A DNA stretch of 42,808 nucleotides, from NCBI GenBank assembly GCA_947626585.1, contig CANQSU010000002.1, forward strand, positions 1 to 42,808, read 5' to 3'. Made by a program: the position numbers and the translations under genes. Source of the DNA: an uncultured Oscillospiraceae bacterium (GTDB lineage: Bacteria > Bacillota > Clostridia > Oscillospirales > Oscillospiraceae). The first letter of the stretch is position 1, and every line of letters begins with the position of its first letter. Below the pieces are notes generated by a model. The model worked only from the letters and a program-made list of their open reading frames with translations, made no database searches and was not told the origin of the DNA. Positions 15,640-34,135 of this stretch are shown piece after piece.

Positions 15640-16860
15640 TTACAGCCGCTCTGCCAATTCATCAACAAAATCCATTGCCAGCTCCACAACGACATCAGAA
15701 TTATGGTGCTGATGCTCTCCCCATCTCCCTAAGCCATAGATTCCTTTCTCTTTTGCATAGGCTAAAACGGAGTGCATAATCTCTGGCTTGTCTATAGTAT
15801 TCACCGGATAGGCATACTCATTGGCGAACTTATAATTATATGGAGCATCTTTTGGGATAAGCAATGCGCGCTCTTGATTTATCTCAATAATCATCCCGTG
15901 CATCGTTGGCCATACATTTTTTCTGATTGTTGCCCGATGATATGGTAATTGCATATTTGGAAAGTATACCCACTGTGCCTTTGTGTCCAAATCATCGTTC
16001 ACGTACCGATTTTCAATTGCTACATATTTCAGGGTACTCAGTTTCTCCTTCAATTCATTGGGTAATCCCACTATTTCATCAAATGTTCGCCACGGTATCG
16101 TGGTAATGATGATGTCCCCATGGTACGCTTCTCCAGACTTCGTCCGCACAATTTTTTTATCCATGTCAATGTAATTAACAGCCTGATTACAAACAACATG
16201 GTCTCCCAATTGTTCAGCCATTCTGCGCCAAAGCTCTCCAAATCCAGTTTTCTTTGGATAATAAAATTGGGCCACACAAGGTTGAGTCCCGTACGCGCGC
16301 TTTTGAAGGCAGCTCAACAACGTTTCGCGGAAGGATACGCTGGGTAACTTGTACAGCCAATATGTCCCCATCGAATCCAGATTTTCACCGTATAATTTTG
16401 AGTTATATGGAATCATGTAGTCATCAGCAATTTTCTTGCCCAGCTTCCAGTAGATCCAGTCCTTAAAGCCTTCAGGCATACCAATTCCGGTGTTACAACC
16501 GGCAGCAGAAATGGACTCCAAATACGCGACCTGACTATCCATATCCATCTGCCACAAATTTGCCTCAAACGGGCTGTTAATCAGTTGATCGTTTACAAAT
16601 ATTTTACTGTCGCGCTCATAAAGCTTCCACTCGCTCTGTGGCATAAAGCCAAACAAATACGACATGACACGTTCAGATCTATGATCCAAATAATGCGGGC
16701 CGCCAATGTCTATCGGTTCGCCTTCAAATTCTATGGAGCGGCAAAGTCCTCCAGGTTCTGCCTCCTTTTCAAGAATTAAGAATGAGTCGATGCCTCTTTC
16801 TTTCAGTCTATTGCCTAATGTCAGACCCGCGGGTCCAGCTCCAAGTATAATGATTTTCAT
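15640..16860 (-). CDS. FAD-dependent oxidoreductase (protoporphyrinogen oxidase/UDP-galactopyranose mutase-like)
   Basis: MKIIILGAGPAGLTLGNRLKERGIDSFLILEKEAEPGGLCRSIEFEGEPIDIGGPHYLDHRS; GxGxxG and PGG motifs. Confidence 0.82.
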   Translation of the reverse strand: MKIIILGAGPAGLTLGNRLKERGIDSFLILEKEAEPGGLCRSIEFEGEPIDIGGPHYLDHRSERVMSYLFGFMPQSEWKLYERDSKIFVNDQLINSPFEANLWQMDMDSQVAYLESISAAGCNTGIGMPEGFKDWIYWKLGKKIADDYMIPYNSKLYGENLDSMGTYWLYKLPSVSFRETLLSCLQKRAYGTQPCVAQFYYPKKTGFGELWRRMAEQLGDHVVCNQAVNYIDMDKKIVRTKSGEAYHGDIIITTIPWRTFDEIVGLPNELKEKLSTLKYVAIENRYVNDDLDTKAQWVYFPNMQLPYHRATIRKNVWPTMHGMIIEINQERALLIPKDAPYNYKFANEYAYPVNTIDKPEIMHSVLAYAKEKGIYGLGRWGEHQHHNSDVVVELAMDFVDELAERL

Positions 16861-16892
16861 AAAATCCCTTTCATTTTTTCATTTATAGTTTT

Positions 16893-17831
16893 TTATCCTA
16901 CTTGTTTTTGAAAATGCTCGTACGTAATACGAACCGCAGTTTCCAGATCATATTCAGGTTTCCATCCCAACGCCCTAAGGCGAGATGAATTTGTGACTCT
17001 GCGCATTATCCCGTCGGGCTTTGAAAGATCGTAAACAATCTGTCCTTTATAATCGACAACGTTTTTTATAATGTCCGCTAATTCGCGAATTGACGTACCT
17101 CCTGAGCCCGATCCAATATTATAAAGCCCCTCCACCGATTCCTGTTCCATCAGCAAAACACACGCAGACGCAACATCATCGCTAAAAAGGAATTCTTTCA
17201 CCGGCTTACCAGTACCCCACAGAGTAAATTCTGCGGCGTTCGTCGTCTTGGCATCATGCATACGATGAATCATGGATGCTACAACGTTAGCCCTCTCAAG
17301 GTCAAAGGAAGAATCTGTTCCAAAAAAGGCACAGGGAACAACCGTGAAAAACTGATTGCCATACTCTTCTCTATAGTAATCGCAAAGCTTTACACCTGTT
17401 ATTTTGGCTAAACTGTAAGGAAAATCACGTTTGCTCGGCAATCCCGATAAAAAGTCGTCTTCTGTCATCGCCCTGTCCTGTATTTCGGGATAGATAAAAT
17501 CACTGCTCATAAAAAGAAGTTTCTCGACGTCAAACCTATGTGCGCATCTGATCACATTTGTCTGCATAAGAAGATTCTCAAGGAGCAATTCTGCCGGATG
17601 GGAATTTCGGTATGTGATGCTTCCCATTTTTGCCGCAGTATATAAAACATATTTCGGCTTATACTCCTTGAAAAAAGATTCCACTTCATCTTGAGAACTA
17701 AGGTCCAACTCTTTGTGCGTTGGCGATAAGACGTTTGAATAACCTTTCGATAGAAGCCGTCTCCGTATCGCGCTTCCGGCAACGCCATGTCCGCCGGCGA
17801 TAAATATGGCGTCGTTATGTCCCATTATCAT
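16893..17831 (-). CDS. NAD-dependent epimerase/reductase, GDP-fucose synthase/ColC-like SDR
   Basis: IFIAGGHGVAGSAIRRRLLSKGY...LDLSSQDEVESFFKEYKPKYVLYTAAKMGSI...FPYSLAKITGVKLCDYYREEYG. Confidence 0.85.
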   Translation of the reverse strand: MIMGHNDAIFIAGGHGVAGSAIRRRLLSKGYSNVLSPTHKELDLSSQDEVESFFKEYKPKYVLYTAAKMGSITYRNSHPAELLLENLLMQTNVIRCAHRFDVEKLLFMSSDFIYPEIQDRAMTEDDFLSGLPSKRDFPYSLAKITGVKLCDYYREEYGNQFFTVVPCAFFGTDSSFDLERANVVASMIHRMHDAKTTNAAEFTLWGTGKPVKEFLFSDDVASACVLLMEQESVEGLYNIGSGSGGTSIRELADIIKNVVDYKGQIVYDLSKPDGIMRRVTNSSRLRALGWKPEYDLETAVRITYEHFQKQVG

Positions 17832-18026
17832 ATCATCGTCTCCTTTTCTTTCATCTCATATAATTATTCCTGTTAATTCTTTTTCTCGATAAAAATATCA
17901 ATTTTTCATCAAGAAATGCTATGCTGCGGACAGCCCATTTCCGCGTGAAAGCGCTGAAATGACGTCTCATACAAAATCTGATACACATGCGGTGTTATAA
18001 AAAGGCTTTGCACTTTTTATCAGGTT

Positions 18027-18263
18027 CTAATATAAGACTCCTAAGCTGACAACACTTACAGTCACTCCCAGCTTCAGTTCCGGCAAACGGTAGCGGGATT
18101 CTATCTCATGGTACCCCGCCGTCAGGGGGAGACACATAAACATGCGGTTGCCGCGAAGAATCTTTATCGTCTCCCCGTCTACCGTAGCTGGGCAGCCCTT
18201 ACTGTTCGATATACTGAAATAAAACATTTTGTTCTTGGACAGGCTCACCGTACTTACACCCAA
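18027..18263 (-). pseudogene. Remnant of a YfhO-type membrane protein C-terminus
   Basis: FYFSISNSKGCPATVDGETIKILRGNRMFMCLPLTAGYHEIESRYRLPELKLGVTVSVVSLGVLY matches my recollection of the YfhO C-terminal pattern (ysxGWxxxVDGxxxxxxxxnxxfmxxxLpaGxHxIexxYxPxxlxxGxxiS); rest of gene absent. Confidence 0.65.
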
Positions 18264-18346
18264 ATCAAACTATTCACCTCTCAATCCCGATGCTGATCTC
18301 ATTCATTTCTAAGTGGTTATAATTTGACACTACTTACCTATTCTCC

Positions 18347-21196
18347 TTATTCCCAAATTGGTTTTTGATCCCTTGGCGTTATAGTAATATCATGAATGGC
18401 CACTTCTTCATCAGTCTGATTCACACACCTGATTTCAAGCCCGTCTGCGTGTGAATCGGCGTTAATAGAGAATGTGATCTCATTATCGCTCTTTTCTAAC
18501 CCCTCCATTTCATAGGTTCGAGCATTGAGTGTATCCGCAATGCCGCTGACCACATCAAATGTCCCTGCGTCCAGGTTTTCACCACGAATCACCACGTCGT
18601 AAGTTCCAGAATCAATCGAGGTATACGGGCCATACTGTGCCGCCCCCTTTGGCAGGACAATCATCCCTTCTCTCAAATAGGCTCCGTTTTGATATTGAAG
18701 CGATATGAAATTAAACTTCGCGTTTTCTCCGAACCGCAACAAGTCGAAAGCCAAAGGATTTTTCTCATAATGATACAGACTATATCCGGCTACTTCTTCC
18801 GTCTTGTCTGCCATAGAAAGAAGGTATCCACGCTTTTCTCCATCGAGCCATGTTTCTCGTTGTTCCGGTCCCAAAACGATCGTGATTGGTTCATCGTCGT
18901 TAGTCCACCGTGTACGGTCTGTAATCCAATCGTAACTCTGAATGGTCTCCGTGTCGCTCAGCAGGGGGCCTTCGACTTCTTCGTTGCTCAGGAAGGTAAT
19001 ACTGCTATTATTCCAATATGTGCTTGCAATTCTGTAATAACCGTTATCCTTTAAATACTCCGTTAATTGTATAAGCCCATTTGAATCGATGTTTTGATGC
19101 GTATAATAAACCACAGAGGACAAGCCAATTCCTACCATAACAAAGATACAGAAAAAACTACGAACAACTTTCAAATCTTTGCGTCTATATAAATATCGGT
19201 AAAGTGAAACAGTCAGGACTATGGTAAGTAGAGGAATTGTTGCGAACCAATACCTGGTAAAGCCTTCATACCTTGTAAAGTAGCAAAAAATCAGGAACAA
19301 AACCGCAGAAGCAGCAAGATAACATAGAATCTTCTTCTCCCAATCCGTCAGCCAATTTTCCTTCCTTAACTCGCACAACCCCCAGACAAGCACAATAAGT
19401 AATACGCACATGTAGACCGTCAATAGCCCTCTCGCGGAAAAAATGAATGACCCGTCTAACACAATGCCAAATGCTCTAAATAAAAATGTCGTCTCCGTGC
19501 AAATGTCCGTCCAAAGAGAATCAAATGTCGCAAGGGAAAAAGCTGTCGACGGTTGTCCAATATAGTGCATATACGGAGTGATTACGAATCGGTAAACTGC
19601 TACGCCAAAAATATTAGCAAAAAGCAAGCCACTCGATATAACAACAGGTTTTATCGAAACATTATTTCGCTTGAGTTTTCCATGGATATACTGAATCACT
19701 TCAAATAGAAAGACAGGCAGATAAAGGTAGAGCAACATTCTTATGCCGCAAATGCCAAAATACACCGAAATTCCAAGCAATATAATTATTTTTAATAAAC
19801 GGGATCTCTTGTTGTGTGTTATATCTCTTAATATTGCAAATGTCAGCATTTCGCCAATGAGAAACAACGAAAAAGCGGGAACATACCGAAAAACGGGGTA
19901 TTCATCGATGTTATACTTTATTCCGTACCCCATCCCGAAAAAAATCACCAGCGCTAATAGCGTCTCCGGATAGGTCCAATCCAGTTTTCTGAAAAAATAG
20001 GTAGCTGCCACCGCCAACAGTATGGTTATGGCAACAAGCGTCATCTTGGCACTTATGACAACATTTTTTGTGAGCGAATAAAATATTACGTACAAAAACC
20101 ACGGACGCGAAGCAAGAAGCTCTGTACAATTGGCATACTCTGGGCTGAAAGGATTCCCGGTCTCCCAAACCTTTCGCATATATAAGAACTCACCAGCATA
20201 ATCATCATTAATATGCTGCTCCAAATACATCCAATTTTGAGCTGAGATAATAGCAAGTAAACACAAAAAGGCAACTAAGAACAGGTACCCCAGTTTATCC
20301 TGCTGTAATTCTGCATATACATTTTTTCCCCATTGAGCAAATCTGTTAATGTGGTTCCTTCCTTCTCCCTTGCTCATTATTAAAACATCCCCACTTTCGC
20401 CATCAATTTTTTGATTATTATTAGCCTCTACTACTGTATCAGCCGCGGGCAATTGTATGGCTCCACTCAAAAACTTCTCATACTTCCCGCATATCTCATC
20501 TACGTTTTCCCCAAACGCGACTTGCTTGCCTTTGTGAAGCCAAAGGACCTTGTTGCACATCTCGCGCACCTGGTCCATTGAATGAGAAACGAGGATCGTG
20601 GTGGCACCGCCGTGTATGATTTCCTTCATTTTTTCTTCGCTTTTCTTTCGGAAAGCGCCATCGCCGACGGACAGCACCTCGTCCAAAATCAGGATGTCGG
20701 GACGCACAAGGCTGGCGATGGAGAACGCCAGTCTGGACTGCATACCGGACGAAAGCTGTTTGAAGGGCCTGTTCTGAAAATCCTGCAACTCCGCGAATTC
20801 TATGATGGAGTCATACGTATCGTCCATGAACTTACGCGTATAACCCAGCAACGCCCCGCGCAAATAGGTGTTCTCCCTCACAGTCAAATCGCCATCGAAA
20901 CCGCTGCCCAGCTCCAGCAGGGCAGCGATACTCCCCTCCCGGCGAACGTTGCCGTAAGTGGGCTCCATGATACCGGCAACAGCCTTCAGTAGTGTGGACT
21001 TACCCGCGCCGTTACTCCCAATAATGCCCAACATATCCCCTTTTTCAAGGCTAAAGGAGATATCCCTGTCCGCCCAAAACTCGTTCACGGAATAATTGTG
21101 TGTCAGCCTCCGCATAACATACTCCTTCAAGCCGATATCCTTGAAATCGCCTGTCATATAGCGGATAGATGCGTTATTGACTTCCAGTACGCTCAT
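18347..21196 (-). CDS. Wzt-like ABC ATPase fused to a polytopic GT-C-like membrane domain and a C-terminal beta-sandwich-like module
   Basis: 949 aa. N-terminal Walker A GSNGAGKST, signature LSSGMQSR, Walker B ILILDEVLSVGD; then many TMs with a first extracytoplasmic loop HINDDYAGEFLYMRKVWETGNPFSPEY; C-terminal IVLPKGAAQYGPYTSIDSGTYDVVI. Confidence 0.88.
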   Translation of the reverse strand: MSVLEVNNASIRYMTGDFKDIGLKEYVMRRLTHNYSVNEFWADRDISFSLEKGDMLGIIGSNGAGKSTLLKAVAGIMEPTYGNVRREGSIAALLELGSGFDGDLTVRENTYLRGALLGYTRKFMDDTYDSIIEFAELQDFQNRPFKQLSSGMQSRLAFSIASLVRPDILILDEVLSVGDGAFRKKSEEKMKEIIHGGATTILVSHSMDQVREMCNKVLWLHKGKQVAFGENVDEICGKYEKFLSGAIQLPAADTVVEANNNQKIDGESGDVLIMSKGEGRNHINRFAQWGKNVYAELQQDKLGYLFLVAFLCLLAIISAQNWMYLEQHINDDYAGEFLYMRKVWETGNPFSPEYANCTELLASRPWFLYVIFYSLTKNVVISAKMTLVAITILLAVAATYFFRKLDWTYPETLLALVIFFGMGYGIKYNIDEYPVFRYVPAFSLFLIGEMLTFAILRDITHNKRSRLLKIIILLGISVYFGICGIRMLLYLYLPVFLFEVIQYIHGKLKRNNVSIKPVVISSGLLFANIFGVAVYRFVITPYMHYIGQPSTAFSLATFDSLWTDICTETTFLFRAFGIVLDGSFIFSARGLLTVYMCVLLIVLVWGLCELRKENWLTDWEKKILCYLAASAVLFLIFCYFTRYEGFTRYWFATIPLLTIVLTVSLYRYLYRRKDLKVVRSFFCIFVMVGIGLSSVVYYTHQNIDSNGLIQLTEYLKDNGYYRIASTYWNNSSITFLSNEEVEGPLLSDTETIQSYDWITDRTRWTNDDEPITIVLGPEQRETWLDGEKRGYLLSMADKTEEVAGYSLYHYEKNPLAFDLLRFGENAKFNFISLQYQNGAYLREGMIVLPKGAAQYGPYTSIDSGTYDVVIRGENLDAGTFDVVSGIADTLNARTYEMEGLEKSDNEITFSINADSHADGLEIRCVNQTDEEVAIHDITITPRDQKPIWE

Positions 21197-21208
21197 AACC
21201 GTCTCCTA

Positions 21209-21640
21209 TTACTGAATTAAAGATGCCTCGCATGCCGCCTCTATGCTGCAACCAACGGTGGGCTTTTCAAGGCGCGTCGCCTCCGCGAAAATAACACTGA
21301 AAGATTCATACAACGGCTGAGAAGAAAAGCCGTCGTAATCTGCATATTCCCGCTTCTTTTCCGCATCGGTTATCTTACCCATAAAGCGTATACGACGAAC
21401 CCTCTGTTCCCTGGATCACCACTCAAAACTTGCGCACATTATATATCTCCTTGTCAGCATCATATGTCACGCAGCCGCCTGCCAAGTTCAGTTCTGAATC
21501 CGGGTACTTGTCCGACATCACCGGTGCAACCGTCGGAATTCTGTCGATTCCCTTGCGCCGTTCCAAGCGGCCAACGGGAATGGCAATCAATTTCCCATTG
21601 TTCTTTCGTGAACGGCTGTTTGATCTTTATCGCATACAGC
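21209..21640 (-). pseudogene. Frameshifted glycosyltransferase family 4 remnant
   Basis: Frame 1: GKLIAIPVGRLERRKGIDRIPTVAPVMSDKYPDSELNLAGG...NVRKF*; different frame: REQRVRRIRFMGKITDAEKKREYADYDGFSSQPLYESFSVIFAEATRLEKPTVGCSIEAACEASLIQ*. These are consecutive GT4 C-lobe motifs. Confidence 0.75.
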
Positions 21641-21713
21641 CCTTAAATCGCATCATTTACTCAGTCGCTGGCGGCAATGATATGATAATGACAGATACCA
21701 TAAGGGATATAGT

Positions 21714-22790
21714 TCATTGCTCAGTCCCCCACTTTTGCAGCAGTGTATTCAGGCGTTCTCTTACCGCAACCCGACTGTATTTTTTTAAGTTTCTTCCCTG
21801 CTTTTCAATAATAGAATTCCTTAACCTTTCATCATGCAAAACACTGTCCAACAGACAAGCAATCAGCGCATAGTCCCTTTTGTATAGCAAAACGCCACTC
21901 CCACCCATCGTATCTGGCACAGCGCAAGAAGCATACCCAATGGTAGGTATACCAAAGTGCTGCGCCTCCAAAAGCGGCATGCAAAACCCCTCATGTTCGC
22001 TCATGCAGAGAAATACTGATGCACCACGGTAATACGAATATAACTCTTTAGCGGTCACCTTACCTGTAAAAACCACCTGGTTTTTCGCCGTCATTTGGTC
22101 CACCTGAGCATAGAGCGCATCTGTATAGTCATTTTTTTGCGCAGAATCGCCTACCAAATATAGCTTAATGTTTTGGCTATGATATCTATAATAGTTTTCA
22201 AAAACACGCAGAATGTCCTCGAATCGTTTATTAGGCGCTACCCGTCCAACAAATAATATGTATGGCTCACCGTTTTGAAGCTGATGTAGAAGTTTTCGGT
22301 CATATGGCGCGTTTTCTAATTCCTCAAAATCAAAATACGGAGGAAGAACGTCCGTCTCTGTTATGTCAGCTCCATATGAAATCAAATCCATAGCATTGAA
22401 CGGAGATGCCGCCCAAAACCCATCGAAACGCTGTAAATTCTCCTTCAACTGCTCAAGTCCTTCCTTGCAGTTTTTATATGCCTCCGGGTCACAGGCACGG
22501 AAGAACTCCGGGGGGGTCACATTGTGATAATAAATCAGCCGACGGCAAGGGTATCCTGCCACTTGTTCAAGAATCATACTCTTTCCCGCAAAGTTATAGA
22601 TTATCAAATCGCTTTTCATTGGGCGGTATTTATCTATATCTTCACGATAGTCCGCCACTCTCTCATCCCACCACTTAGAATATATCTGGTTTTCTATGCG
22701 CAGATCATCCAAAATACCCTTTAGTTGCATAACAACATTGCCCACACCGTCGCCGAAATTCAGCGTATCAATCATCTGAATCACTCGCAT
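21714..22790 (-). CDS. Glycosyltransferase family 4
   Basis: YILFVGRVAPNKRFEDILRVFENYYRYH...SVFLCMSEHEGFCMPLLEAQHFGIPTIGY. Confidence 0.9.
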   Translation of the reverse strand: MRVIQMIDTLNFGDGVGNVVMQLKGILDDLRIENQIYSKWWDERVADYREDIDKYRPMKSDLIIYNFAGKSMILEQVAGYPCRRLIYYHNVTPPEFFRACDPEAYKNCKEGLEQLKENLQRFDGFWAASPFNAMDLISYGADITETDVLPPYFDFEELENAPYDRKLLHQLQNGEPYILFVGRVAPNKRFEDILRVFENYYRYHSQNIKLYLVGDSAQKNDYTDALYAQVDQMTAKNQVVFTGKVTAKELYSYYRGASVFLCMSEHEGFCMPLLEAQHFGIPTIGYASCAVPDTMGGSGVLLYKRDYALIACLLDSVLHDERLRNSIIEKQGRNLKKYSRVAVRERLNTLLQKWGTEQ

Positions 22791-22888
22791 AATTCTTTAT
22801 CCTCCGTGTGCTAAACATCTATATTTCTATGGGCCTCTCGTCGGATAGCATTATCAGTTACCTGCTCCAACGTGTAATCCTATTGTCC

Positions 22889-24115
22889 TTATCCTTGTTT
22901 CCGGGCACAATCGTGAAGCAGCTTAATCGCGTCCTCAATCCTGGCCCACATACGGCCGATCTCCTCAAGCCTGGTATCATTGGCACACGAGCCGTTTACG
23001 CTTTCTGCCAATTCCTGCAAATTGTACTCAGCCTTGTCAAGCCTCTCTGCACTCACATTTATATCTCCGATAGAGTCAGCCAAAGCGGACAACTCATTTT
23101 CCAAAGCATTGAGTCTTTCTTCATTCCTGCGTATGTATTCCTGTTCTTGACGTGCCATCTCAAGGTTTTGCAACTGCTCCTGTAGCTTAAATATCTGCTC
23201 ATTCTGGAGCGCGATTTTCCGGTCCAGTTGTTCGATTTTTTCAGACTCCGATTGCTGTATCTCCGAGAGCCCTTCTGCAATCGACGCGGCGAGCAGCCGT
23301 ACCTGACGGTTTTGATCCCCAAAGATCGCCGCGATACGTCTGTTGAAGTCAAGCTGGAACGCAATAAAACAGTTCATCAGCTTCCTCAAGAAGCGCTTTA
23401 TCGCGTGGAACCGTGTCCTCTGAGGCAGTGTACATTCAGCGGCCACCTGCAACCCTCGATAAGCTGCGGCATCACCTCTCTGAATATCATACAATTCCTG
23501 AATATACGCCCCGACAACACGGCCGGCGGATTTCTCTTCCAGGCTATCTTCCTCGCCTTTCTCCGGGTTGTCTGTTTCATATTCGGCCAATCGTACTGTG
23601 TTTTCTCCTTGGATTGATTCCAAGTGGTCACTGACTGAGACCTTGTTAAATATGATTTCTCCACTTCCGCTATTGATAGTTTTCAATTCCAAGTCGGATA
23701 TTTCTTCCGGAAGTGAAAATGGAAGAACCACTTTCCCGTTCCGCAGCAGGTCTTCGGCATTACCCGAGGCTATGCGCCCCACTGTCTGGCTGCTAACTTC
23801 CACCTTACCGTCAGGAAGGTCACCTGTTAAATCATATACAGCCGCGTAATCACCGGCAGGAAACGCAAAATAGGGCCCGAAAACAGTGCCGTCGGCGGGT
23901 ATCCTGATTCTGTTTTCCTCCCGCGAGCAGTTCTCAGTACAGAACATCTTTCCGGCTTCAAATTTGCCATTCGTGCCAATAAATCTGTTGGCATATTGTG
24001 CTTGGTACTTTTTTGCCAAGGCCTGTGAATACTCCCAGTCATCGTTAACTAAAAAATCACCGCGGTAGTATTCTTCTACATTATTCGTGGTCCCATCGAC
24101 GCGACTATGTGCCAT
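22889..24115 (-). CDS. Coiled-coil protein with N-terminal GPY-type beta-sandwich-like module; candidate chain-length/assembly factor
   Basis: N-terminal RIRIPADGTVFGPYFAFPAGDYAAVYDL; central IKRFLRKLMNCFIAFQLDFNRR; long heptad-rich C-terminus. Confidence 0.75.
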   Translation of the reverse strand: MAHSRVDGTTNNVEEYYRGDFLVNDDWEYSQALAKKYQAQYANRFIGTNGKFEAGKMFCTENCSREENRIRIPADGTVFGPYFAFPAGDYAAVYDLTGDLPDGKVEVSSQTVGRIASGNAEDLLRNGKVVLPFSLPEEISDLELKTINSGSGEIIFNKVSVSDHLESIQGENTVRLAEYETDNPEKGEEDSLEEKSAGRVVGAYIQELYDIQRGDAAAYRGLQVAAECTLPQRTRFHAIKRFLRKLMNCFIAFQLDFNRRIAAIFGDQNRQVRLLAASIAEGLSEIQQSESEKIEQLDRKIALQNEQIFKLQEQLQNLEMARQEQEYIRRNEERLNALENELSALADSIGDINVSAERLDKAEYNLQELAESVNGSCANDTRLEEIGRMWARIEDAIKLLHDCARKQG

Positions 24116-24172
24116 TCTGTATTCCCCCTATTGATTCTTCGCTTTTCTTACTTCACTGTATGCAAGGTCAAA

Positions 24173-25303
24173 TCAAATCAGATATATCTTCTTCAAAGCG
24201 ACCACGACATCCGACACGTTGTTGATAACAAATTCCACGTTTTCAAACTGTTTCCAAAGCTTGAATTTGTATTCGTTTTTGCCGTTTTCCAGCAAAAATC
24301 CTCCCAAAAAAATCCTTCCTGAATTAGCCGTTATCTTCCCCGCGACAGGAATATCGATGGTATCACTCAAATCAATGTCCATCACAATTTTGTAATCACC
24401 GGCGGGAAGCGTTGTATACGGGCCATATACAACTCCACCGGAAGGAATGACGATTCGATCGGCCTCTCTGCGTGCGCCACCCGTACACTGCATTTTGCTC
24501 AGATAATCATTTTGTCTGGACAGAACGCTTTCACCTAATATACAGTAATCAGAACGATGACCGGTTACATGTGACGGGAGTACACAACATTGAGGATTAT
24601 ATAGATTCTCAGCCGTAGCCGGAAGCGGGAACTTATTCTTTGCTAAGCTTTCGCGCACAAAGAAGGCATTTACGCCCGTTATATTTGTTCCAACCAGCTG
24701 ATATCCTTTTCTCCTGCCCAAAACCTCCAACGCTTTCAGAGATGCACCCTGGTTATCGTTTCCCTGCCACAGATGGGCGCTGAAATAAGGCATGATCCAC
24801 TCGCAATCCGGTGGGAACTTCCCGTTATACTCAATGCAGACAACCCTCGGCTTGACTGCTTGGATTGCTTCCCAGACATGGTAGTCATTTCCGTCAACAT
24901 CCACGCTTAGAAAGTCGATATCGCCCTGCATTCCATTTTTCATAAAGATGCGGTTGATATTATCCCTTGTGATAAACGCACATTCCGTTTTCAACGCTCC
25001 AGTAGAAATAACGCATGAAAACTTCTCCTGGATTTGTTCATAATACGGTCTGTGCCCCTCGATCCAAAGGCCTGTCCATCCCTTGAACAAAAGATAATGG
25101 CTGTTGCACTCCAGGCCATTCTCCACGCCGAACTCAATAAAGCGTTTACTGGTCGTTCCAATGCGGTCAAATATCTCCTGGATGATCCCGTCTTCATCAT
25201 TTTGGGAAAATACTTTATATCCGTATTGTTCAAGAAAAACAGGATTTTCCAGGCGTTCTCTGGTTTTCTTATTCCAGCGGTAACCGCCGTACACTGGCTC
25301 CAT
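24173..25303 (-). CDS. FkbM-like SAM-dependent methyltransferase with C-terminal GPY-type beta-sandwich-like module
   Basis: QNDEDGIIQEIFDRIGTTSKRFIEFGVENGLECNSHYLLFKGWTGLWIEGH...DIDFLSVDVDGNDYHVWEAI; C-terminal RIVIPSGGVVYGPYTTLPAGDYKIVMDI. Confidence 0.68.
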   Translation of the reverse strand: MEPVYGGYRWNKKTRERLENPVFLEQYGYKVFSQNDEDGIIQEIFDRIGTTSKRFIEFGVENGLECNSHYLLFKGWTGLWIEGHRPYYEQIQEKFSCVISTGALKTECAFITRDNINRIFMKNGMQGDIDFLSVDVDGNDYHVWEAIQAVKPRVVCIEYNGKFPPDCEWIMPYFSAHLWQGNDNQGASLKALEVLGRRKGYQLVGTNITGVNAFFVRESLAKNKFPLPATAENLYNPQCCVLPSHVTGHRSDYCILGESVLSRQNDYLSKMQCTGGARREADRIVIPSGGVVYGPYTTLPAGDYKIVMDIDLSDTIDIPVAGKITANSGRIFLGGFLLENGKNEYKFKLWKQFENVEFVINNVSDVVVALKKIYLI

Positions 25304-25392
25304 AAATTCCCTCCAGGTAATGACCCCAGGTTTTTACTCAAGTCTCCGGACAATGATTTTGGCTCACGGCCTTGGCATTTTATAGAGATGTT

Positions 25393-26169
25393 TCATACGT
25401 AATACAAAAAGGAATGGTTGTACTTCTTGTACATTAACGCCCCCACACAAAAGGCAATCAGAGCATAGGCGGCTGCCAACAGATGAAATTGTGGTGTCGG
25501 TATTACGCTGTCTATCACGATCTTTCTAAAATATCGTATATAGAGGTAGATGGGATTTAGCAGGAACAGATACTGCGCCGTCTGGCCATATCCGTCGATA
25601 GTGTAAAAAATGGCCGACATCCACATAATGAGTTGGGTCAAAATTCCCCAAAGATACTGCATATCCCTGAAGAACACAAATAGTGCCGATAGGACAAGCC
25701 CAATGCCCAAATTAAACACGATCAGACACCCAATCGGATATACAAGCAAAAGGAATTTCCAAGTAAAGGAGATTCCATCGATTGCCGCAAATACGAAGAA
25801 AATCAGTAATGTCAGCCCAAAGTTAATGAGGGACGACACATTTTCAGAAAACAAAAACAGATACTTCGGAACGTTGACCTTCGTGAATATACCTGAATTG
25901 CCCACCAGGGAACTCATCCCCAAGTTTGTGGCGTCAGTGAAATAGGAAAACACCAGCTGACCGGCAAATAGGTAAATCGAATAATGATTCACATTGTTGC
26001 CAAAAAAGTTGTTAAATACCAGCCACATAATGAGGAGATTCATGAGCGGGGACAGAATACTCCATGCCATTCCCAAAATCGTCCGTTTGTATTTCTTTGT
26101 AAAATCCCGCTTCACCAGCTCCGAGAACAGAAACCAGTGCTTTCGCAGTTTTGCCAAGGCTTCAGTCAT
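25393..26169 (-). CDS. ABC-2 type polysaccharide export permease (Wzm-like)
   Basis: 258 aa; LVKRDFTKKYKRTILGMAWSILSPLMNLLIMWLVFNNFFG...YLFLLNPIYLYIRYFRKIV. Confidence 0.9.
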   Translation of the reverse strand: MTEALAKLRKHWFLFSELVKRDFTKKYKRTILGMAWSILSPLMNLLIMWLVFNNFFGNNVNHYSIYLFAGQLVFSYFTDATNLGMSSLVGNSGIFTKVNVPKYLFLFSENVSSLINFGLTLLIFFVFAAIDGISFTWKFLLLVYPIGCLIVFNLGIGLVLSALFVFFRDMQYLWGILTQLIMWMSAIFYTIDGYGQTAQYLFLLNPIYLYIRYFRKIVIDSVIPTPQFHLLAAAYALIAFCVGALMYKKYNHSFLYYV

Positions 26170-26211
26170 TGTAGAATTGACTCCTTAACTCAAAATTGAC
26201 ACGAAAGGCCT

Positions 26212-27249
26212 TTACCGTGTCAAGAACATCACCCCATTCTGAACACGCTCCCGCCAGTAATCCAGAAGATCGTGCATGGTCTTTTCAAAGGGGATCTGGG
26301 GCTCCCAGCCGGTGTGGGCTTTGAACTTACGGCAGTCAGGCACCTGCAGGTCAGCGTCAATGGGGCGAAGGCGTTCAGGGTCGACAACAACGCTGATCTT
26401 GTCCTTCATCGGGGAATAGGACATCAATGTGTTGAGCGTATCACCCACCTCGCAGGTATAGGAGCCTCCAATGTTGTAGTACTCACCGGGGACGGGGTCG
26501 ATGGTAACCAGCATGTAATAAGCCCGGACGGCATCGCGGACATCCGCGTATGTGCGCAAAGATTTCAGATTCCCGACCTTGACCACCGGCTCGATCATAC
26601 CGGCCTCGATCATGGCGATCTGCTTGGCAAACGTGGATTCGTGAAACACGTCCCCGCGTCGGGGACCGGTATGGGTAAACATGCGGGTGGTCATAACGGT
26701 CATGCCGTAAGCCTCCGCGTAGTAGCGGCCCAGAAGATCGGTCCCGACCTTGGAAATCGCATAGGGCGAGGCGGGATGGAAGGGACACTCCTCGTGGATA
26801 CCCGTCTCCGGCTTTTTCGCGGCGGGGATCTTACCGAACACCTCCGAGGAGGCGCAGACATGTATTACCGGCTTGTAAGCCGGATCATTCACCATCTCGT
26901 GATGGATCGCCTCCAGGAGCCGGCAAGTCCCGAGAATATTGGTATTCAGCGTGTCGATCGGCGCTGTAAAGCTGGTGAGAGGGTAACTCTGAGCCGCCAG
27001 ATGGAACACATAGTCCGGCCGCGCCTGTTCGATCACGTGTATAAGGGAGACCTGGTCATTCAGGTCCGCGTATTCAAAATACAGTCTGTCGTGATTGTTC
27101 GCACGCTCAAGCAGATGCTGTACATTGTCCAGCGGACTGCGCCAGCGGCAAACGCCGCATACATCCCAGTCCGTGTTCTCAAGAAGGAAATCCGCCAAGT
27201 GGGATCCGACCATGCCGGTAACACCGGTTATCAAGGCTTTATTTCTCAT
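26212..27249 (-). CDS. GDP-mannose/GDP-heptose 4,6-dehydratase-like SDR, copy B
   Basis: MRNKALITGVTGMVGSHLADFLLENTDWDVCG...; near-collinear with copy A at 12628-13644. Confidence 0.88.
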   Translation of the reverse strand: MRNKALITGVTGMVGSHLADFLLENTDWDVCGVCRWRSPLDNVQHLLERANNHDRLYFEYADLNDQVSLIHVIEQARPDYVFHLAAQSYPLTSFTAPIDTLNTNILGTCRLLEAIHHEMVNDPAYKPVIHVCASSEVFGKIPAAKKPETGIHEECPFHPASPYAISKVGTDLLGRYYAEAYGMTVMTTRMFTHTGPRRGDVFHESTFAKQIAMIEAGMIEPVVKVGNLKSLRTYADVRDAVRAYYMLVTIDPVPGEYYNIGGSYTCEVGDTLNTLMSYSPMKDKISVVVDPERLRPIDADLQVPDCRKFKAHTGWEPQIPFEKTMHDLLDYWRERVQNGVMFLTR

Positions 27250-28108
27250 TTTTTACGCTCTCCATTTCTTGCTTGAAAATATAAGTAAAATTATCCAGCT
27301 CCAGTATTTTGTAATCACTCATATACAGACTGGTCATTTGAGTGATACCCGAGCGGTTTTGGAAGAAGCTGTCGTCCGGGCGACACGCCTCATATTGCAG
27401 TTTACCATGATAAAGGCGGTTGATCTCATCCGCTATACGCACGCGGCTGACAAGCTCCGGCCCGGCCATGTTCAGCACCCACGGCGTGTATTTTTCCCAA
27501 TTTGTTATCAGCCACAGAATAGTTTTCAGAACACAGCCGAGGGTGATACAATTACGGTAGAAAGGATGGTACACCTCGGCAGTTTGCCTCTTCTCCATGC
27601 ATTTCAAGCAGTATGTAACGAACCGGTCCTTTGCCGACACAACATATGATAGACGGATTGCCTTAAAGCCGCTTTCACTTTTAAAACGATCCTCAACGGC
27701 TTTCTTCATTTTGCCGTAGGGAGTGTTCGCCCGCGTAGGGGATACCTCCGTATAGACCTCTCCCGGAATATCGCCAAATACCGCGTCGCTTGACAGGAAC
27801 AGGACCCTGCATTTTCGAACCAACGCCTCGTCAATGACCCTTGTCGTGCCGGTAACATTTACGCTCCACGCCAGTTCAAAATCCGAGGCACATTTATCCG
27901 GGCTGGATATGGCCGCTGTAAAAATCACCTGATCGATTCCGTCAAAAACACTGTAATCAAATTGCTCCGGACGGGATAAGTCCAGAAGCAGGTCTTCCCC
28001 CGGCTCCGGTCCGATCCTAATTAGCCGCTCAACTGCGGGCTCCTCCTGGAGTTTATTGTACAAAGCCCTGCCGATGTAGCCGGACCCGCCAATTATCGCA
28101 ATACGCAT
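27239..28108 (-). CDS. NAD-dependent epimerase/reductase (SDR, RmlD-like)
   Basis: MRIAIIGGSGYIGRALYNKLQEE...VIFTAAISSPDKCASDFELAWSVNVTGTTRVIDEAL...VFGDIPGEVYTEVSPTRANTPYGKMKKAVE. Confidence 0.85.
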   Translation of the reverse strand: MRIAIIGGSGYIGRALYNKLQEEPAVERLIRIGPEPGEDLLLDLSRPEQFDYSVFDGIDQVIFTAAISSPDKCASDFELAWSVNVTGTTRVIDEALVRKCRVLFLSSDAVFGDIPGEVYTEVSPTRANTPYGKMKKAVEDRFKSESGFKAIRLSYVVSAKDRFVTYCLKCMEKRQTAEVYHPFYRNCITLGCVLKTILWLITNWEKYTPWVLNMAGPELVSRVRIADEINRLYHGKLQYEACRPDDSFFQNRSGITQMTSLYMSDYKILELDNFTYIFKQEMESVKNEK

Positions 28109-28111
28109 CCC

Positions 28112-28768
28112 TTATCCCCTCTCCCCAAAGAAGTACTCTTCCAGCATCAGGCACAGGCAATGATAGACCGGCAGATGGAGTTCTTGAATCTTGTATGTCT
28201 CCGTCTCAGGTACGCAGATACATACATCGGCAAATTCCGAAAGCCTGCTATCTCTTTTGCCCGTGAGCCCAATCACCTTCAGATTTTTCGCCCTTGCGAC
28301 TGTGGCGGCATAGAGGACATTTTTGCTGTTTCCTGAAGTGGATATTCCTAAAAACACATCTTCTGGTTTGCCGTATCCGTTTACCTGCTGGGCAAAGCAC
28401 AGCTGTGGGTCGCAATCATTCATATAGGCTGTCGATAACGCCAGGTGACCGTCGAGAGCGATGGCGGGTAAGGCCATTTGAAGGTTCGCGCTAAGTACGG
28501 ATCCCAGCTCCGGCTGGCTGTCCAACAGCGCGGATGAAAAGTCCGCGTCGACTTTCCTCTTCAGTACGAACCCTTTCATAAGCTCGCCAACTATGTGTTC
28601 CGCGTCCGCCGCGGAGCCGCCGTTTCCGGCGATCAGAAGCTTTCCGCCCTCCGAATAGCTGTCGCGAATGATCTCGTACGCCTGTACTATCGCTACTTCG
28701 CAAGACTCCAAAAGTGGATACCGCCGGAGCAACTCTTCTATGAACTTTTTCTCTCTTTCACTCATCAT
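28112..28768 (-). CDS. gmhA: D-sedoheptulose-7-phosphate isomerase (SIS domain), copy B
   Basis: GGKLLIAGNGGSAADAEHIVGELMKGF...DVFLGISTSGNSKNVLYAATVARAKNL. Confidence 0.9.
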   Translation of the reverse strand: MMSEREKKFIEELLRRYPLLESCEVAIVQAYEIIRDSYSEGGKLLIAGNGGSAADAEHIVGELMKGFVLKRKVDADFSSALLDSQPELGSVLSANLQMALPAIALDGHLALSTAYMNDCDPQLCFAQQVNGYGKPEDVFLGISTSGNSKNVLYAATVARAKNLKVIGLTGKRDSRLSEFADVCICVPETETYKIQELHLPVYHCLCLMLEEYFFGERG

Positions 28769-28979
28769 AAGAACAGCTTCCCATCTTTTCAGTGAACTCC
28801 ATCAACGATCTTACTGTCATATCCTGTCCGTATATCTCATTAAAATCCTGTTCTTTCAAGTACCTGATCTCCCGCTCCAGTATAGATATCCCTTTTATCG
28901 GGACCATGGGCCTCGGGATGTCTTTTGTGACTGAGGCAAGCCGTGTGCCTTTCCCACCGGTCATCATCACGGTCTTCAT
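28758..28979 (-). pseudogene. Truncated/internally deleted HddC-like nucleotidyltransferase (73 aa)
   Basis: MKTVMMTGGKGTRLASVTKDIPRPMVPIKGISILEREIRYLKEQDFNEI is a normal nucleotidyltransferase N-terminus, then only YGQDMTVRSLMEFTEKMGSCSYDE; most of the domain is missing. Confidence 0.85.
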
Positions 28980-29995
28980 TATTGCTTTATCCTCTGCTCA
29001 TACTGTTCAGGAGAGTAGTGTATGACCCTGCTACCGCCATTTTCAAATCTGAACGGGATCTCCAGAAGGCCATTTAGAGCCTGCCGGACCGAATTCTGGT
29101 TCTCCGGCCTTACATAAAACAGCAGGAAACCGCCGCCGCCCGCGCCCAGAAGCTTTCCGCCCAGCGCCCCGGCCGACAGACCTCTCTCGTACAAGCTGTC
29201 GATGCTTTCTGTTGATACGACCCTGCTTGTCCCCCGCTTCAGCCTCCAGGTGTAATCCAGCAGTCGTCCGAAGTCGTCAATATCCGCCTTCCTGTCCGTA
29301 AGTATCTTCTCCGCCTCACCCACAAGTCCGTACATCTCCCTCAGTCTCGATAGCTTGTCCTCCGAATGTGAGGCGGTTGCCTTCTGGACATCTGAAGAAA
29401 ATCTGGTAAAGCCAGTAAAGAACATCATCAGGTTATTGTTCAGCTGTTCTCTCCTCTCGGGGGATATTATAATCGGGAGTACCTCATATCCGTCGGCGGT
29501 AAAATTGATTCTGTTCAAGCCCCCATACGCGGCGGCAATTTGATCCTGCCAGCCACCAGCCTCTTTACACAACACCCGCTCAAGGTAGATCGCTTCATCC
29601 GCAAGCTTTTTCTTGTCGGCATATTTCCCCTTTAAAGCGTAAAATGCGTTCAACATTCCCACAGCGAAGGAACTGCTTGTCCCCAGACCGGAACGGGCCG
29701 GCAGGTCCGCGTCGTAGGTGAGCCGCAACTCATGCATGTCAAGCATCTTCATAGCGTTACGGATGGCCGGATGTTCAATATCATCCACACGGTTTATCCG
29801 CTCCGTTTTCGAGTATGTAATATCCGTAGAGTACTCAAAAAACGGCGGAAGATGTCGGACCGTGACATAGCAGTATTTGTCAAATGTTGTGGACAAAACA
29901 GCTCCACCATATTCTCTGAAATATTCCTCCATGTCTGTTCCACCGCCGAAAAAGGACATGCGGAATGGTGTCTGTGTAATGATCAGACATATCAC
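28979..29995 (-). CDS. hddA: D-glycero-D-manno-heptose-7-phosphate kinase (GHMP family), copy B
   Basis: IITQTPFRMSFFGGGTDMEEYFREYGGAVLSTTFDKY...DLPARSGLGTSSSFAVGMLNAFYALKG...GGKLLGAGGGGFLLFYV. Confidence 0.92.
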   Translation of the reverse strand: MICLIITQTPFRMSFFGGGTDMEEYFREYGGAVLSTTFDKYCYVTVRHLPPFFEYSTDITYSKTERINRVDDIEHPAIRNAMKMLDMHELRLTYDADLPARSGLGTSSSFAVGMLNAFYALKGKYADKKKLADEAIYLERVLCKEAGGWQDQIAAAYGGLNRINFTADGYEVLPIIISPERREQLNNNLMMFFTGFTRFSSDVQKATASHSEDKLSRLREMYGLVGEAEKILTDRKADIDDFGRLLDYTWRLKRGTSRVVSTESIDSLYERGLSAGALGGKLLGAGGGGFLLFYVRPENQNSVRQALNGLLEIPFRFENGGSRVIHYSPEQYEQRIKQ

Positions 29996-30007
29996 TTCCT
30001 TCCAATT

Positions 30008-30412
30008 TTACTTCTTTCCCTCTGACTCACAAGGCGTGTCCTCAGCGCTCAATTTTTCCAGTATATTCAAAGTGTGGTCCAACGCCCTGATTACATGTAA
30101 ATGATAATTGTTTATTTCTCCCACGATTGGCTCAATAAGGAATCTTCCCAATTTTCGGATAACGCGTTTTATAAAAATGACTACCAGTGTCATAGCCTTA
30201 TGGTGAGTTTTTAAATCCCGGTCATAATGGATTTCTCTCTTCTTAAGTGTTTCCAGTTCCCTTTTAAGGGATGCAAGCTCTGCCCTTATGTCATCAGGAT
30301 TGCCAAAAATAACCTGTTCAAATGCCGGGATATTCTCCATTTCCCCGCGTGAAGAAATCTCACCTTTTATCGTCTCAGTAACCTGATTTACATCGGGATT
30401 TACAATGTCCAT
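30008..30412 (-). CDS. Small coiled-coil protein with IKRVIRKLGRFLIEPIV motif
   Basis: 134 aa; heptad-like AELASLKRELETLKKREI then IKRVIRKLGRFLIEPIVGEINNYHLHVIRALDHTLNIL. Confidence 0.7.
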   Translation of the reverse strand: MDIVNPDVNQVTETIKGEISSRGEMENIPAFEQVIFGNPDDIRAELASLKRELETLKKREIHYDRDLKTHHKAMTLVVIFIKRVIRKLGRFLIEPIVGEINNYHLHVIRALDHTLNILEKLSAEDTPCESEGKK

Positions 30413-30422
30413 GGGTCAACCT

Positions 30423-31493
30423 CTATACGATTTGTTTGAAATATTCCAGAAAATCGTTCTCCACTTTCTGCGGTTGGAAACTTTCCAATCTTTTTCTCTG
30501 CCCCGAAATGATTCGCTCGCGCATAGTCTTGTCATCTGTCAACCGCTTAATCCATTCTCCAATCAGCCGCGGATCCTTGTCGTCCAGCAGTACGCCACAC
30601 CCGTCCAATGTCCCCGAAATGGCCGCTGCCCGATAGGCTATAATCGGCAAGTCAAAAAACATAGCCTCTACGAGCGGGACACAAAACCCCTCATGTTCGC
30701 TCATACACAGAAAGATGTTCGCGCTTCTATAAATCGCAATAAGTTGCGCGAAACTGATATGTCCCGGAAATATCACATCCTGCGTACCAAGCACGTCTAA
30801 ATACTCATGCAACGCATCAGCATAATCCGTCACACTAACAGCCCCAACCAAAATCAACCGTGAACGGTAATTGATGTATTTTTTATAATAAGTAAAAGCT
30901 CTAATAACATCTTCCTGTTTCTTGTTGGGCGCCAGCCGTCCTACAAAGAGAATATTGATCCATCCATCGCCATACCGCTTCAACGTTTCCATGTCCGGCG
31001 GTGCCGTATAATCCTTAAATGGAATCAAGCATGAAGGCATAACCCATATCTGATTCGCTGAGTATCCCATCGCGATAAGGTCCCGCATGCTGAATTCGGA
31101 AAATGTGATACATTTTTCCACAACATTGGACAACTGCTTCACCTGATCCAGTCCTCGCCGGGTCTCATTTGCCATCTGGACGTCATATGGCTCAAAAAAT
31201 GATGGAGGGGTAATATTGTGGTACATCAATATTTTGCGGCATCTCCATGTTTTCAGCTTTAAGTTCAACGGTGACCCATCCGACAAATGATAAATCATCA
31301 AATCGTTTTCTTTCGGTGTTCGGAGGCAAAACAAGTGCTTAGCCGTATCGCGCGGGTAACGGTCATCTATAACCTGCGCATAGATTTCCGTGGAATAGCC
31401 GGCTTTTTGGAGAATAGCTTTCATGGCAACCGCGTGGTATCCAATTGCGTCTCCATAGGCCAGATTTCCAAGCACCTGAATAACTCTCATCAA
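30423..31493 (-). CDS. Glycosyltransferase family 4 (paralogue of 21714-22790)
   Basis: ILFVGRLAPNKKQEDVIRAFTYYKKYINYRSRLILVGAVSVTDYADAL...ANIFLCMSEHEGFCVPLVEAMFFDLPIIAYRAAA. Confidence 0.92.
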   Translation of the reverse strand: MMRVIQVLGNLAYGDAIGYHAVAMKAILQKAGYSTEIYAQVIDDRYPRDTAKHLFCLRTPKENDLMIYHLSDGSPLNLKLKTWRCRKILMYHNITPPSFFEPYDVQMANETRRGLDQVKQLSNVVEKCITFSEFSMRDLIAMGYSANQIWVMPSCLIPFKDYTAPPDMETLKRYGDGWINILFVGRLAPNKKQEDVIRAFTYYKKYINYRSRLILVGAVSVTDYADALHEYLDVLGTQDVIFPGHISFAQLIAIYRSANIFLCMSEHEGFCVPLVEAMFFDLPIIAYRAAAISGTLDGCGVLLDDKDPRLIGEWIKRLTDDKTMRERIISGQRKRLESFQPQKVENDFLEYFKQIV

Positions 31494-31513
31494 ACCGCCC
31501 TTCTCTCACCGTT

Positions 31514-32617
31514 TCAATTCAGAAGTGAATAATAAACGCCCTTTAAAATCTCTGCTGATCTGTCCCACGAAAAGAGCTTTGCTCTTTCCAACCCATGGTT
31601 ACAAAGTTCAGCTGCGTAATCCGGCTTGCTGATAACGCGCCAAAGACCCTCCGCAATGCTCTCAACAGAGGTCGGGTCCACATAGCACGCCGCATCACCC
31701 GCTACCTCAGGGAGTGAAGCCGCCCGCGAACAAACCACAGGCGTTCCAAATGACATCGCCTCCAACGGTGGGATTCCAAATCCCTCATACAGAGACGGAA
31801 ATACAAAAGCGGTAGCATTTACATATAAGGCTCTTTTCTCCGCATTAGAAACATACCCGCGAAAAACAATATCCTGTCTACAACATATACTCTCGGCTGT
31901 CTTGTATATGTTCTCGCAATTCCATCCGCGGCCGCCCGCTAATACCAGCTTGTGAGGTATATTTGTCTCTCGCTTTAGCAGCTCAAAGGCCCGTAACAGT
32001 CTCACAATATTCTTTCTCGGCTCTATTGCCCCTAAATATAATATATACGGATCGCATATTCTATTTTCGACAGCCGCAGTCGTCGCCTGAACCCCAGACG
32101 CGGCCGCGGGAACTACAATGATGCGCTCCGGTGGCACGTCTAAGAGTTCCTCAATCTCTCTTTTTGAGAATTGAGAACTCGTCACAATCAATTGGCTTCT
32201 CTCAACGCTATACATAATCCCATTGCGGATACGGCGAAGATTTGTAGCACTGACCGTTTCCGGGTAACGCTGATAGGTCATATCATGAATGGTTGTTATA
32301 ACGGTTCCAGTTATTCTGGGTGGCACTATATAATTGAAAAAATGCGTTACATCTGCCGGAGGGAACATCCAGGAATAACGAATAGGGACAACATTCCAAA
32401 TTCTCCTGTATACTCCATATGACATGAATCTATTTTCCTCGACCGCCATATCAATTCCGGTCAATTCTTCCTTCTTTCTACGTCCTAAAATATTAAATAC
32501 ATTTCCCTGATAGACAATCTCCGCATCTGATACCATCCTCCGCGCAAGTTCATATGTATAGTTTCCAATCCCCGCACGGTTTCCACAACACGGTTGCAAC
32601 TCAAGAGCTACATTCAT
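31514..32617 (-). CDS. Glycosyltransferase family 4 (mannosyltransferase-like)
   Basis: [47 protein letters not shown]...[41 protein letters not shown]. Confidence 0.92.
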
Positions 32618-33742
32618 TTACAAAAGGAACTCCTCTATTATCTCGTTTAGCCTCTCCGCCGACAGCTCCCAGGAGAAGCGCTTGACATTCTCAAAGCCCA
32701 GGTCAATCAGGCCGTGGGCGTAATTTGTATCCGTAAGCACCCTTGCCATGCCGGCGCAAATGCTCTCCGCGTCGTAAGGGCCTACGAACTCCGCTCCGGC
32801 CCCCGCCACCTCGGGCAGGGATGAAACATTGCTGGCAACCACAGGCGTCCCGCACCGCTGGGCCTCTATGACCGGGATGCCGAAGCCCTCATAAAGCGTC
32901 GCGAAAACGAACAAGTCCGCCGCGGTATACAAGGCCGGCATGTCCTCGTCGGGGACAAAGCCCGTAAAGATAACGTCGTCACGATGCTTTATATCTCTCA
33001 GGGCGGCGTCCCTGTCGAATTTCCAGCCCTGCTCCCCGGTTATGGCCAGCTTATGGGGCAGGCCCGTCCGCTCCTTCATGAGGTCAAAGGCCCGGATCAT
33101 CCGCTCAAGATTTTTCCGGGGGTTATTGTTGCCCACGAAAAGTATGTATCTTTCCGGTAAGCCGTACCTCTCCCGAAGCTCCGAAAGGGTCCCTTCGTCG
33201 GTGACCCGGCCCATGTTGTCGGAGCAGGCCATGGGTATGACCCTTATCCTCTCCGGCAGCAGTCCCAGAAGCTTCACCATCTCACTTTTCGTAAACTCCG
33301 ATATGGCGAGGAAAAGCTCCGCCCGGTGGCATACATATTTATATTGGAGCCGCCACAGCAGTACCCTGGACCTTTTGTAGACCTCCGGCATCCGGAATAC
33401 CGCCAGATCCGTCACCAATGGGACCAGCTTGCAACTCTTAGGCAGAAAAAACGGTGTCTTGGAGTCCGTGGTCAGGAAGACGGAATCCTTGCAGTATTTT
33501 GGGCCCATCTGGAAAGTCTGGAAAAGCACCCGCTTCAGTCCCCGGCCGTACTCAATGGGAACTCGAACAATTTCCGCCCTGTCCCCCGCGTCCAGCTCCG
33601 GCGCGTCCGAGGTGAGAATTATCCGACACTCGTGTTCTGTCATGCGTGCAAAGGTCCCGAAAAGATCCCGGATCATGACCCCGATCCCCGAACTCCGAGG
33701 CTTGTACTGAAGCCCGTTGATGACTATCTTCAACTCTCCCAC
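32618..33742 (-). CDS. Glycosyltransferase family 4 (mannosyltransferase-like)
   Basis: GTG start (VGELKIVINGLQYKPRSSGIG) preceded by GGAGG; YILFVGNNNPRKNLERMIRAFDLMKERTGLPHKLAITGEQGWKFD...[38 protein letters not shown]. The 33931 ORF start is probably upstream read-through. Confidence 0.9.
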   Translation of the reverse strand: MGELKIVINGLQYKPRSSGIGVMIRDLFGTFARMTEHECRIILTSDAPELDAGDRAEIVRVPIEYGRGLKRVLFQTFQMGPKYCKDSVFLTTDSKTPFFLPKSCKLVPLVTDLAVFRMPEVYKRSRVLLWRLQYKYVCHRAELFLAISEFTKSEMVKLLGLLPERIRVIPMACSDNMGRVTDEGTLSELRERYGLPERYILFVGNNNPRKNLERMIRAFDLMKERTGLPHKLAITGEQGWKFDRDAALRDIKHRDDVIFTGFVPDEDMPALYTAADLFVFATLYEGFGIPVIEAQRCGTPVVASNVSSLPEVAGAGAEFVGPYDAESICAGMARVLTDTNYAHGLIDLGFENVKRFSWELSAERLNEIIEEFLL

Positions 33743-33897
33743 CCCACTGTCATCTGTTCCTCCAACTGTCGGTTCAAAGTCTCCTCCGCCAACAGAAGGA
33801 CCCGGGCCTCGGCTTCGTATAGGACAGAATAAAAAATATGTTAGAAATTTGCGCAAAAAATAGAGCGAAGTTTTTTCGATTTCGCACTTGCTGATAC

Positions 33898-33926
33898 ATA
33901 TTAGCACGAAATGCGAGACTTTGCAA
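33898..33926 (-). promoter_or_regulatory. SigmaA-type promoter for the long glycan operon
   Basis: Minus strand TTGCAA-17 bp-TAATAT (-35 at 33921-33926, -10 at 33898-33903). Confidence 0.7.
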
Positions 33927-34135
33927 CACAAAATGAAGAAAATACGGCTGGGAAGTTTCTGTGTAGGAGTCTATTTTTTATACATCTTTGTAATTCTGTC
34001 TTATTTGGGCGCTGCTCCCAATCCTTCCACCCGTCATACGTATCCCTGTCCGGAGGAAACGTATTTCATACTGACGGCCTCCTCTTTGGAACGGTCCGGG
34101 ACGTCATGTTGTCGTGTCACACTTTATGTGGCGAG

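Follow-up and report, generated by a model that had tools for sequence, protein, structure and literature searches.

A possible split terminator and coiled-coil ruler with a shared CBM-like module beside an ABC exporter of an uncultured Oscillospiraceae bacterium

Results

Gene order around the ABC exporter

The DNA analyzed here, which we call the window, is a stretch of 42,808 nucleotides (GenBank assembly GCA_947626585.1, contig CANQSU010000002.1) from an uncultured Oscillospiraceae bacterium, whose draft genome consists of 3.08 Mb in 286 contigs and is 84.75% complete with 6.25% contamination. In a run of minus strand genes, a Wzm-like permease, an FkbM-like methyltransferase, and a long coiled-coil protein are encoded one after another, with spacings of 89 and 57 bases and with separate open reading frames for the methyltransferase and the coil (Table 1). 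A module of about 110 residues, referred to as GPY, is common to the methyltransferase, the coil protein, and a Wzt fusion protein encoded further downstream. A sequence-only reading of this DNA had described the adjacency of the first three genes and the module common to the methyltransferase and the coil, and both observations were borne out by the reading frames and by profiles built without the copy being tested (leave-one-out profiles).

Table 1. Features of the ABC-exporter locus, in window coordinates.
Feature	Positions	Strand	Evidence
Wzt ATPase fused to polytopic GT-C-like membrane protein, 949 aa	18347..21196	-	ABC_tran 1e-22
Third GPY module, C-terminal on Wzt fusion	18377-18703	-	leave-one-out profile E 3.7e-15
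GT4 glycosyltransferase, immediately downstream of coil gene	21714..22790	-	Pfam Glycos_transf_1 7.3e-27
Coiled-coil protein with N-terminal GPY module, 408 aa	22889..24115	-	ORF list, AlphaFold
Coiled-coil stretch, residues 262-373	22997..23332	-	helix in model, heptad periodicity
Basic amphipathic helix, residues 233-253, possible membrane contact	23357..23419	-	hydrophobic moment 0.64-0.66
GPY module of coil protein, residues 55-163, beta-sandwich	23627..23953	-	leave-one-out profile E 1.2e-13
FkbM-like methyltransferase with C-terminal GPY module, 376 aa	24173..25303	-	ORF list, AlphaFold, Foldseek
GPY module of methyltransferase, residues 265-376	24176..24511	-	leave-one-out profile E 1.3e-19
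SAM motif I, EFGVENG, residues 57-63	25115..25135	-	conservation in alignment
Wzm-like permease, 258 aa	25393..26169	-	ORF list, Pfam
Short anchor-coil protein, 134 aa, anchor family member	30008..30412	-	blastp to L025 coil 8.5e-10
GT4 glycosyltransferase adjoining 134-aa coil protein	30423..31493	-	Pfam 1.6e-21

The minus strand run contains four GT4-type transferases within 21714-33931, together with GDP-mannose-dehydratase-like and GDP-fucose-synthase-like genes and a Wzy_C protein at 5834-8227. Heptose-7-phosphate genes are present in two sets, at 9717-12608 and 28112-29995 (HddA-like and GmhA-like), whose GmhA-like proteins are 46% and HddA-like proteins 65% identical; the set at 9717-12608 has an NTP-transferase/HAD fusion in addition. 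The run lies in a stretch of lower G+C content, 0.42-0.52 across 16001-32000 compared with about 0.6 in the left flank. Two gaps of about 515 bases, at 17832-18346 and 21197-21713, contain interrupted reading frames, apparently what is left of earlier genes; by eye only, the first recalls the C-terminal part of a membrane protein of the YfhO type.

The permease matched Pfam ABC2_membrane with an E value of 1.8e-10 and the NCBIfam model for galactan Wzm with 5.5e-18, the latter below that model's cut-off, and it is 88% identical to the Wzm of another genome of the same family (G339). The sequence-only reading had cited WbdD of E. coli O9a, whose cap is read by Wzt; cap reading is not supported for this locus, since a Pfam search found the cap-reading domain Wzt_C (PF14524) absent from the 949-residue Wzt fusion. 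The membrane part of the fusion is homologous (E 2e-17) to a stand-alone 770-residue GT-C-like protein of another locus, L025, where what forms a single frame in the window is divided among separate genes. Four fusions of Wzt to UDP-galactopyranose mutase are encoded elsewhere in the same genome (L164:3177-4784 on contig C54, L165:3-1511 on C41, L166:8824-10332 on C42, and L167:6-1721 on C50), the mutase part being confirmed by Pfam GLF in L164 and L167 and by sequence similarity in L165 and L166, so that C-terminal Wzt fusions are a recurrent feature of this genome. Eight Wzm-like matches were found on contigs C71, C54, C41, C42, C50, C15, and C12; some of the contigs are near-duplicates, and strain mixing in the assembly is therefore possible. 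LpxC was not found in this genome at its 84.75% completeness, while 4 of 14 control genomes were positive, which makes an LPS O-antigen unlikely.

The FkbM-like protein has a predicted class I methyltransferase fold

The 376-residue protein missed the gathering cut-off of Pfam FkbM (PF05050; 18.0 vs 22.7 bits), as did its relative in L025, and a PDB sequence search returned no relative in any chain. Even so, its naming as an FkbM-like methyltransferase by the sequence-only reading stood up to structural prediction: residues 10 to 240, approximately, were modeled by AlphaFold mostly with pLDDT above 90, and Foldseek matched this model to class I SAM methyltransferases, with TcaB9 as the best match (1.4e-6, probability 1.00). 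In an alignment of 31 sequences, E57, G59, and G63 of motif I (E57-x-G59-x-x-x-G63) are invariant. The model and alignment point to a class I SAM methyltransferase fold with an E/D-x-G motif I, and the protein would be expected to use SAM. The GPY part of the same model is of low confidence, with few aligned relatives.

A contig scan yielded at least 560 stretches encoding relatives of the 376-residue protein in many phyla, of which the best 80 were analyzed. A Wzt homologue lies nearby in only 10 of these 80 loci, with some of the contigs being short, which argues that the FkbM-like enzyme is not a dedicated terminator.

The coiled-coil protein and its relatives

AlphaFold modeled residues 232-373 of the 408-residue protein as one continuous helix, and a 3.5-residue periodicity over residues 268-376 exceeded that of shuffled sequences (p 0.0045), in agreement with the long coiled coil proposed earlier. 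As with WbdD-type terminators, a coiled-coil protein is thus encoded in the glycan locus of an ABC exporter. No relative of the 408-residue protein was found by tblastn against plasmids.

A second anchor-coil protein, the 134-residue member listed in Table 1, had been overlooked, and it seeded our survey of the helix-coil family. The survey revealed six genomes of the same phylum (G603, G579, G544, G624, G759, and G537) in which helix, coil, and a Methyltransf_23 domain form one chain encoded directly after Wzt. Pfam confirmed Wzt_C in the Wzt proteins of G579, G603, and G624, and in those of G544, G759, and G537 it was recognized from the sequence or by blastp. G754 has a helix-coil-methyltransferase fusion with no Wzt match near. 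In G339, whose exporter is the closest to the window's among the relatives, a single 596-residue protein (L022:18051-19841) consists of helix, coil, FkbM, and GPY at the syntenic place. Its FkbM part is canonical (PF05050, 7.4e-19), and its gene follows those for Wzm and a 255-residue stand-alone Wzt lacking Wzt_C and precedes a related GT4 gene. In L025, an FkbM-like protein and a short coil are encoded by adjacent separate genes after a Wzt with Wzt_C, the FkbM-coil-GT4 neighborhood recurs, and no GPY module is common to the two proteins of the pair. The short coils of G841 and G944 adjoin GT4 genes with no methyltransferase match nearby. Altogether, the group of the window's GT4 at 21714..22790 adjoins coil proteins in L025, G841, G944, and G339.

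The anchor-family profile did not match the helical part of the 408-residue coil significantly (E about 1), and we therefore place this protein with the anchor family only tentatively, on arrangement and physical character. Among the related Wzm/Wzt neighborhoods that we fetched, most are without coil, methyltransferase, and module, and anchor-family proteins are present only in L171 (G944).

The GPY module is rare and resembles carbohydrate-binding modules

The third GPY copy, on the Wzt fusion, was likewise overlooked in the earlier reading. A profile built without any copy from the window also recovered all three, and a search of the same genome found exactly these three and no fourth. The two adjacent copies, of the methyltransferase and the coil, are the most alike (38-41%); by tblastn against the same genome they are 45% identical over 100 residues (E 1.2e-10). 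With the window's own genome counted in each case, the module was detected in 3 of 99 relatives, one of them at threshold, and in 2 of 399 genomes of the phylum, so that it appears to be rare at the sensitivity used. Outside this genome, it was seen in G736 on a multi-GT protein and a GT-C protein, twice on a sulfatase-like membrane protein in G033, and twice on a GT-C protein in L025. The G033 protein (L009:12505-15693) is 1062 residues long; besides a sulfatase-like domain, which Pfam Sulfatase matched below its cut-off (E 0.0013), it carries a tandem pair of external GPY modules.

For the coil protein's copy of GPY, AlphaFold predicted about ten strands folded into a beta-sandwich, with pLDDT of about 83-91 over most of its length. 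Foldseek placed CBM6 (5.6e-4), CBM4-2, CBM29, and a porphyran CBM among the best matches, with probabilities of 0.99-1.00 and E values of about 1e-4 to 1e-3 for the CBMs; the same fold occurs in domains that do not bind sugars, and Vip3A and protease domains were among the matches. The module matched no named family in searches of Pfam, NCBIfam, and PDB sequences, and no PDB match was significant. By a simple estimate from hydropathy and the positive-inside rule, the copies in G033, in L025, and on the Wzt fusion lie outside the cell, the C-terminus of the fusion being put there by a basic loop that precedes the last transmembrane segment. The CBM-like fold and the outside location in other proteins suggest that GPY probably binds glycan and is less likely a joint between proteins.

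Discussion

We tentatively propose, as a possibility somewhat short of an even chance, that the methyltransferase and the coil represent an anchor-coil-methyltransferase unit in split form, serving an ABC-exported surface polysaccharide. We infer glycan binding, SAM use, capping, ruler function, and membrane docking as the steps of this explanation. The coil protein would dock on the membrane's inner face by way of its basic amphipathic helix, recruit the neighboring GT4, and extend away from the membrane with its coiled coil. The FkbM-like enzyme would O-methylate the lipid-linked glycan as it grows, most probably at the non-reducing end, and methylation would stop extension ahead of export by Wzm/Wzt. 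The GPY modules on both proteins may hold the same glycan, one common ligand taking the place of mutual binding, and the third, on the Wzt fusion, may bind that glycan outside the cell.

The fused equivalents in relatives, namely the single chain of G339 and the six fusions after Wzt, make a split capping unit plausible, and the adjacent split pair of L025, the methyltransferase fold with its motif I, the presence of the CBM-like module on glycan enzymes elsewhere, and the Klebsiella ruler literature speak for it as well. In the characterized Klebsiella systems, terminator and ruler are on one chain, with the terminator at the far end of the coiled coil that serves as the ruler (PMC11231755). 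Against the split unit are the coil's lack of a significant match to the anchor family, the scarcity of Wzt near relatives of the enzyme, the coils without methyltransferase in G841 and G944, the related Wzm/Wzt loci that mostly lack these parts, and the absence of a kinase and of Wzt_C. In addition, the ruler model needs one chain, unless the two proteins bind each other or share a ligand. The fullest version of the proposal, in which terminator and coiled-coil ruler are separate proteins kept together because each clamps the same glycan with its copy of the CBM-like module, with a third clamp outside on the Wzt fusion and in a host probably without LPS, we consider unlikely.

Alternatively, the coil may be a membrane scaffold for the GT4 while the methyltransferase decorates internal sugars such as heptose or deoxy-heptose, with no cap and no length control and with export of the TagGH/galactan type, which reads no cap. 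Campylobacter capsules contain O-methylated 6-deoxyheptoses, and the cluster here has heptose-pathway genes (HddA-like, GmhA-like, and NTP-transferase/HAD). The pairing of short coils with the same GT4 group where no methyltransferase is near, and a Wzm/Wzt subfamily without Wzt_C that is mostly without an adjacent coil or methyltransferase, also fit such a scaffold, but six relatives fuse a methyltransferase to the end of the coil after Wzt, as in known terminators, and G339 fuses coil, FkbM, and GPY. We regard the scaffold as a genuine possibility, if on balance a somewhat doubtful one.

The sequence-only reading had taken the shared module for a joint between the proteins, and a protein-protein interaction domain could in principle gather the methyltransferase and the coil, together with Wzt, into a single complex. 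The presence of three copies at this locus, with none found elsewhere in the genome, and the close likeness of the two adjacent copies would suggest as much. We think this explanation improbable, however: the fold resembles CBMs; the Wzt-fusion copy is predicted to lie outside, where it could not reach those in the cytosol; G033 and L025 have external copies arranged in tandem; and GPY is not common to the split pair of L025. Equally hard to credit is a degenerate or non-methyltransferase FkbM-like protein in a region where glycan genes acquired horizontally form a mosaic with no joint function: the lower G+C of the cluster relative to its left flank, the gene remnants, and the rarity of the family in the order would fit, but motif I and core residues are conserved, the frames are intact, and the FkbM-coil-GT4 neighborhood recurs in L025.

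If the split unit is real, the pair would test whether the measuring of chain length needs a physical linkage of terminator and ruler. The anchor-coil-methyltransferase genes that follow Wzt in a number of genomes of the phylum would carry the terminator-ruler idea past LPS bacteria and on to the glycans of cell walls or S-layers, and CBM-like modules would connect the steps by which one polymer is synthesized, capped, and exported. Our literature search, which most subscription journals lay outside, found no paper on FkbM together with Wzt, O-antigen, and ABC transporter.

Among known systems, WbdD of E. coli O9a and O8 (PMC3482155) shares with the window a class I methyltransferase fold, a coiled coil, and an ABC-exporter locus, and the O8 WbdD is, as here, a methyltransferase without a kinase. 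The window differs from the O9a/O8 systems in having two proteins, no kinase, a methyltransferase of another family, CBM-like modules, and no Wzt_C, and in that LPS is unlikely. The analogy to WbdD drawn in the sequence-only reading is better supported than the mechanism attached to it: the fused genes after Wzt and the one-chain protein of G339 support the former, whereas cap reading through a Wzt_C domain is excluded for this Wzt to the extent that Pfam can show it. ORF6 of Klebsiella pneumoniae O7 (PMC11231755) is a terminator with a methyltransferase, a CBM-like domain, and a coiled coil, parts that the window has as well, and its CBM is stated to be the only such case so far; in contrast to the window, its domains, kinase and GT modules among them, are all on one chain. 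The six anchor-coil-Methyltransf_23 proteins have the basic amphipathic helix, coil, methyltransferase, and ABC exporter in common with the window, but they are single chains with the methyltransferase C-terminal to the coil, without GPY, and with Wzt_C on their Wzt. Finally, the G339 protein is fused, has a canonical FkbM where the window has an FkbM-like subfamily, and is accompanied by a stand-alone Wzt, yet it unites all four parts, helix, coil, FkbM, and GPY, between the 88% identical Wzm adjacent to it and the related GT4 that follows.
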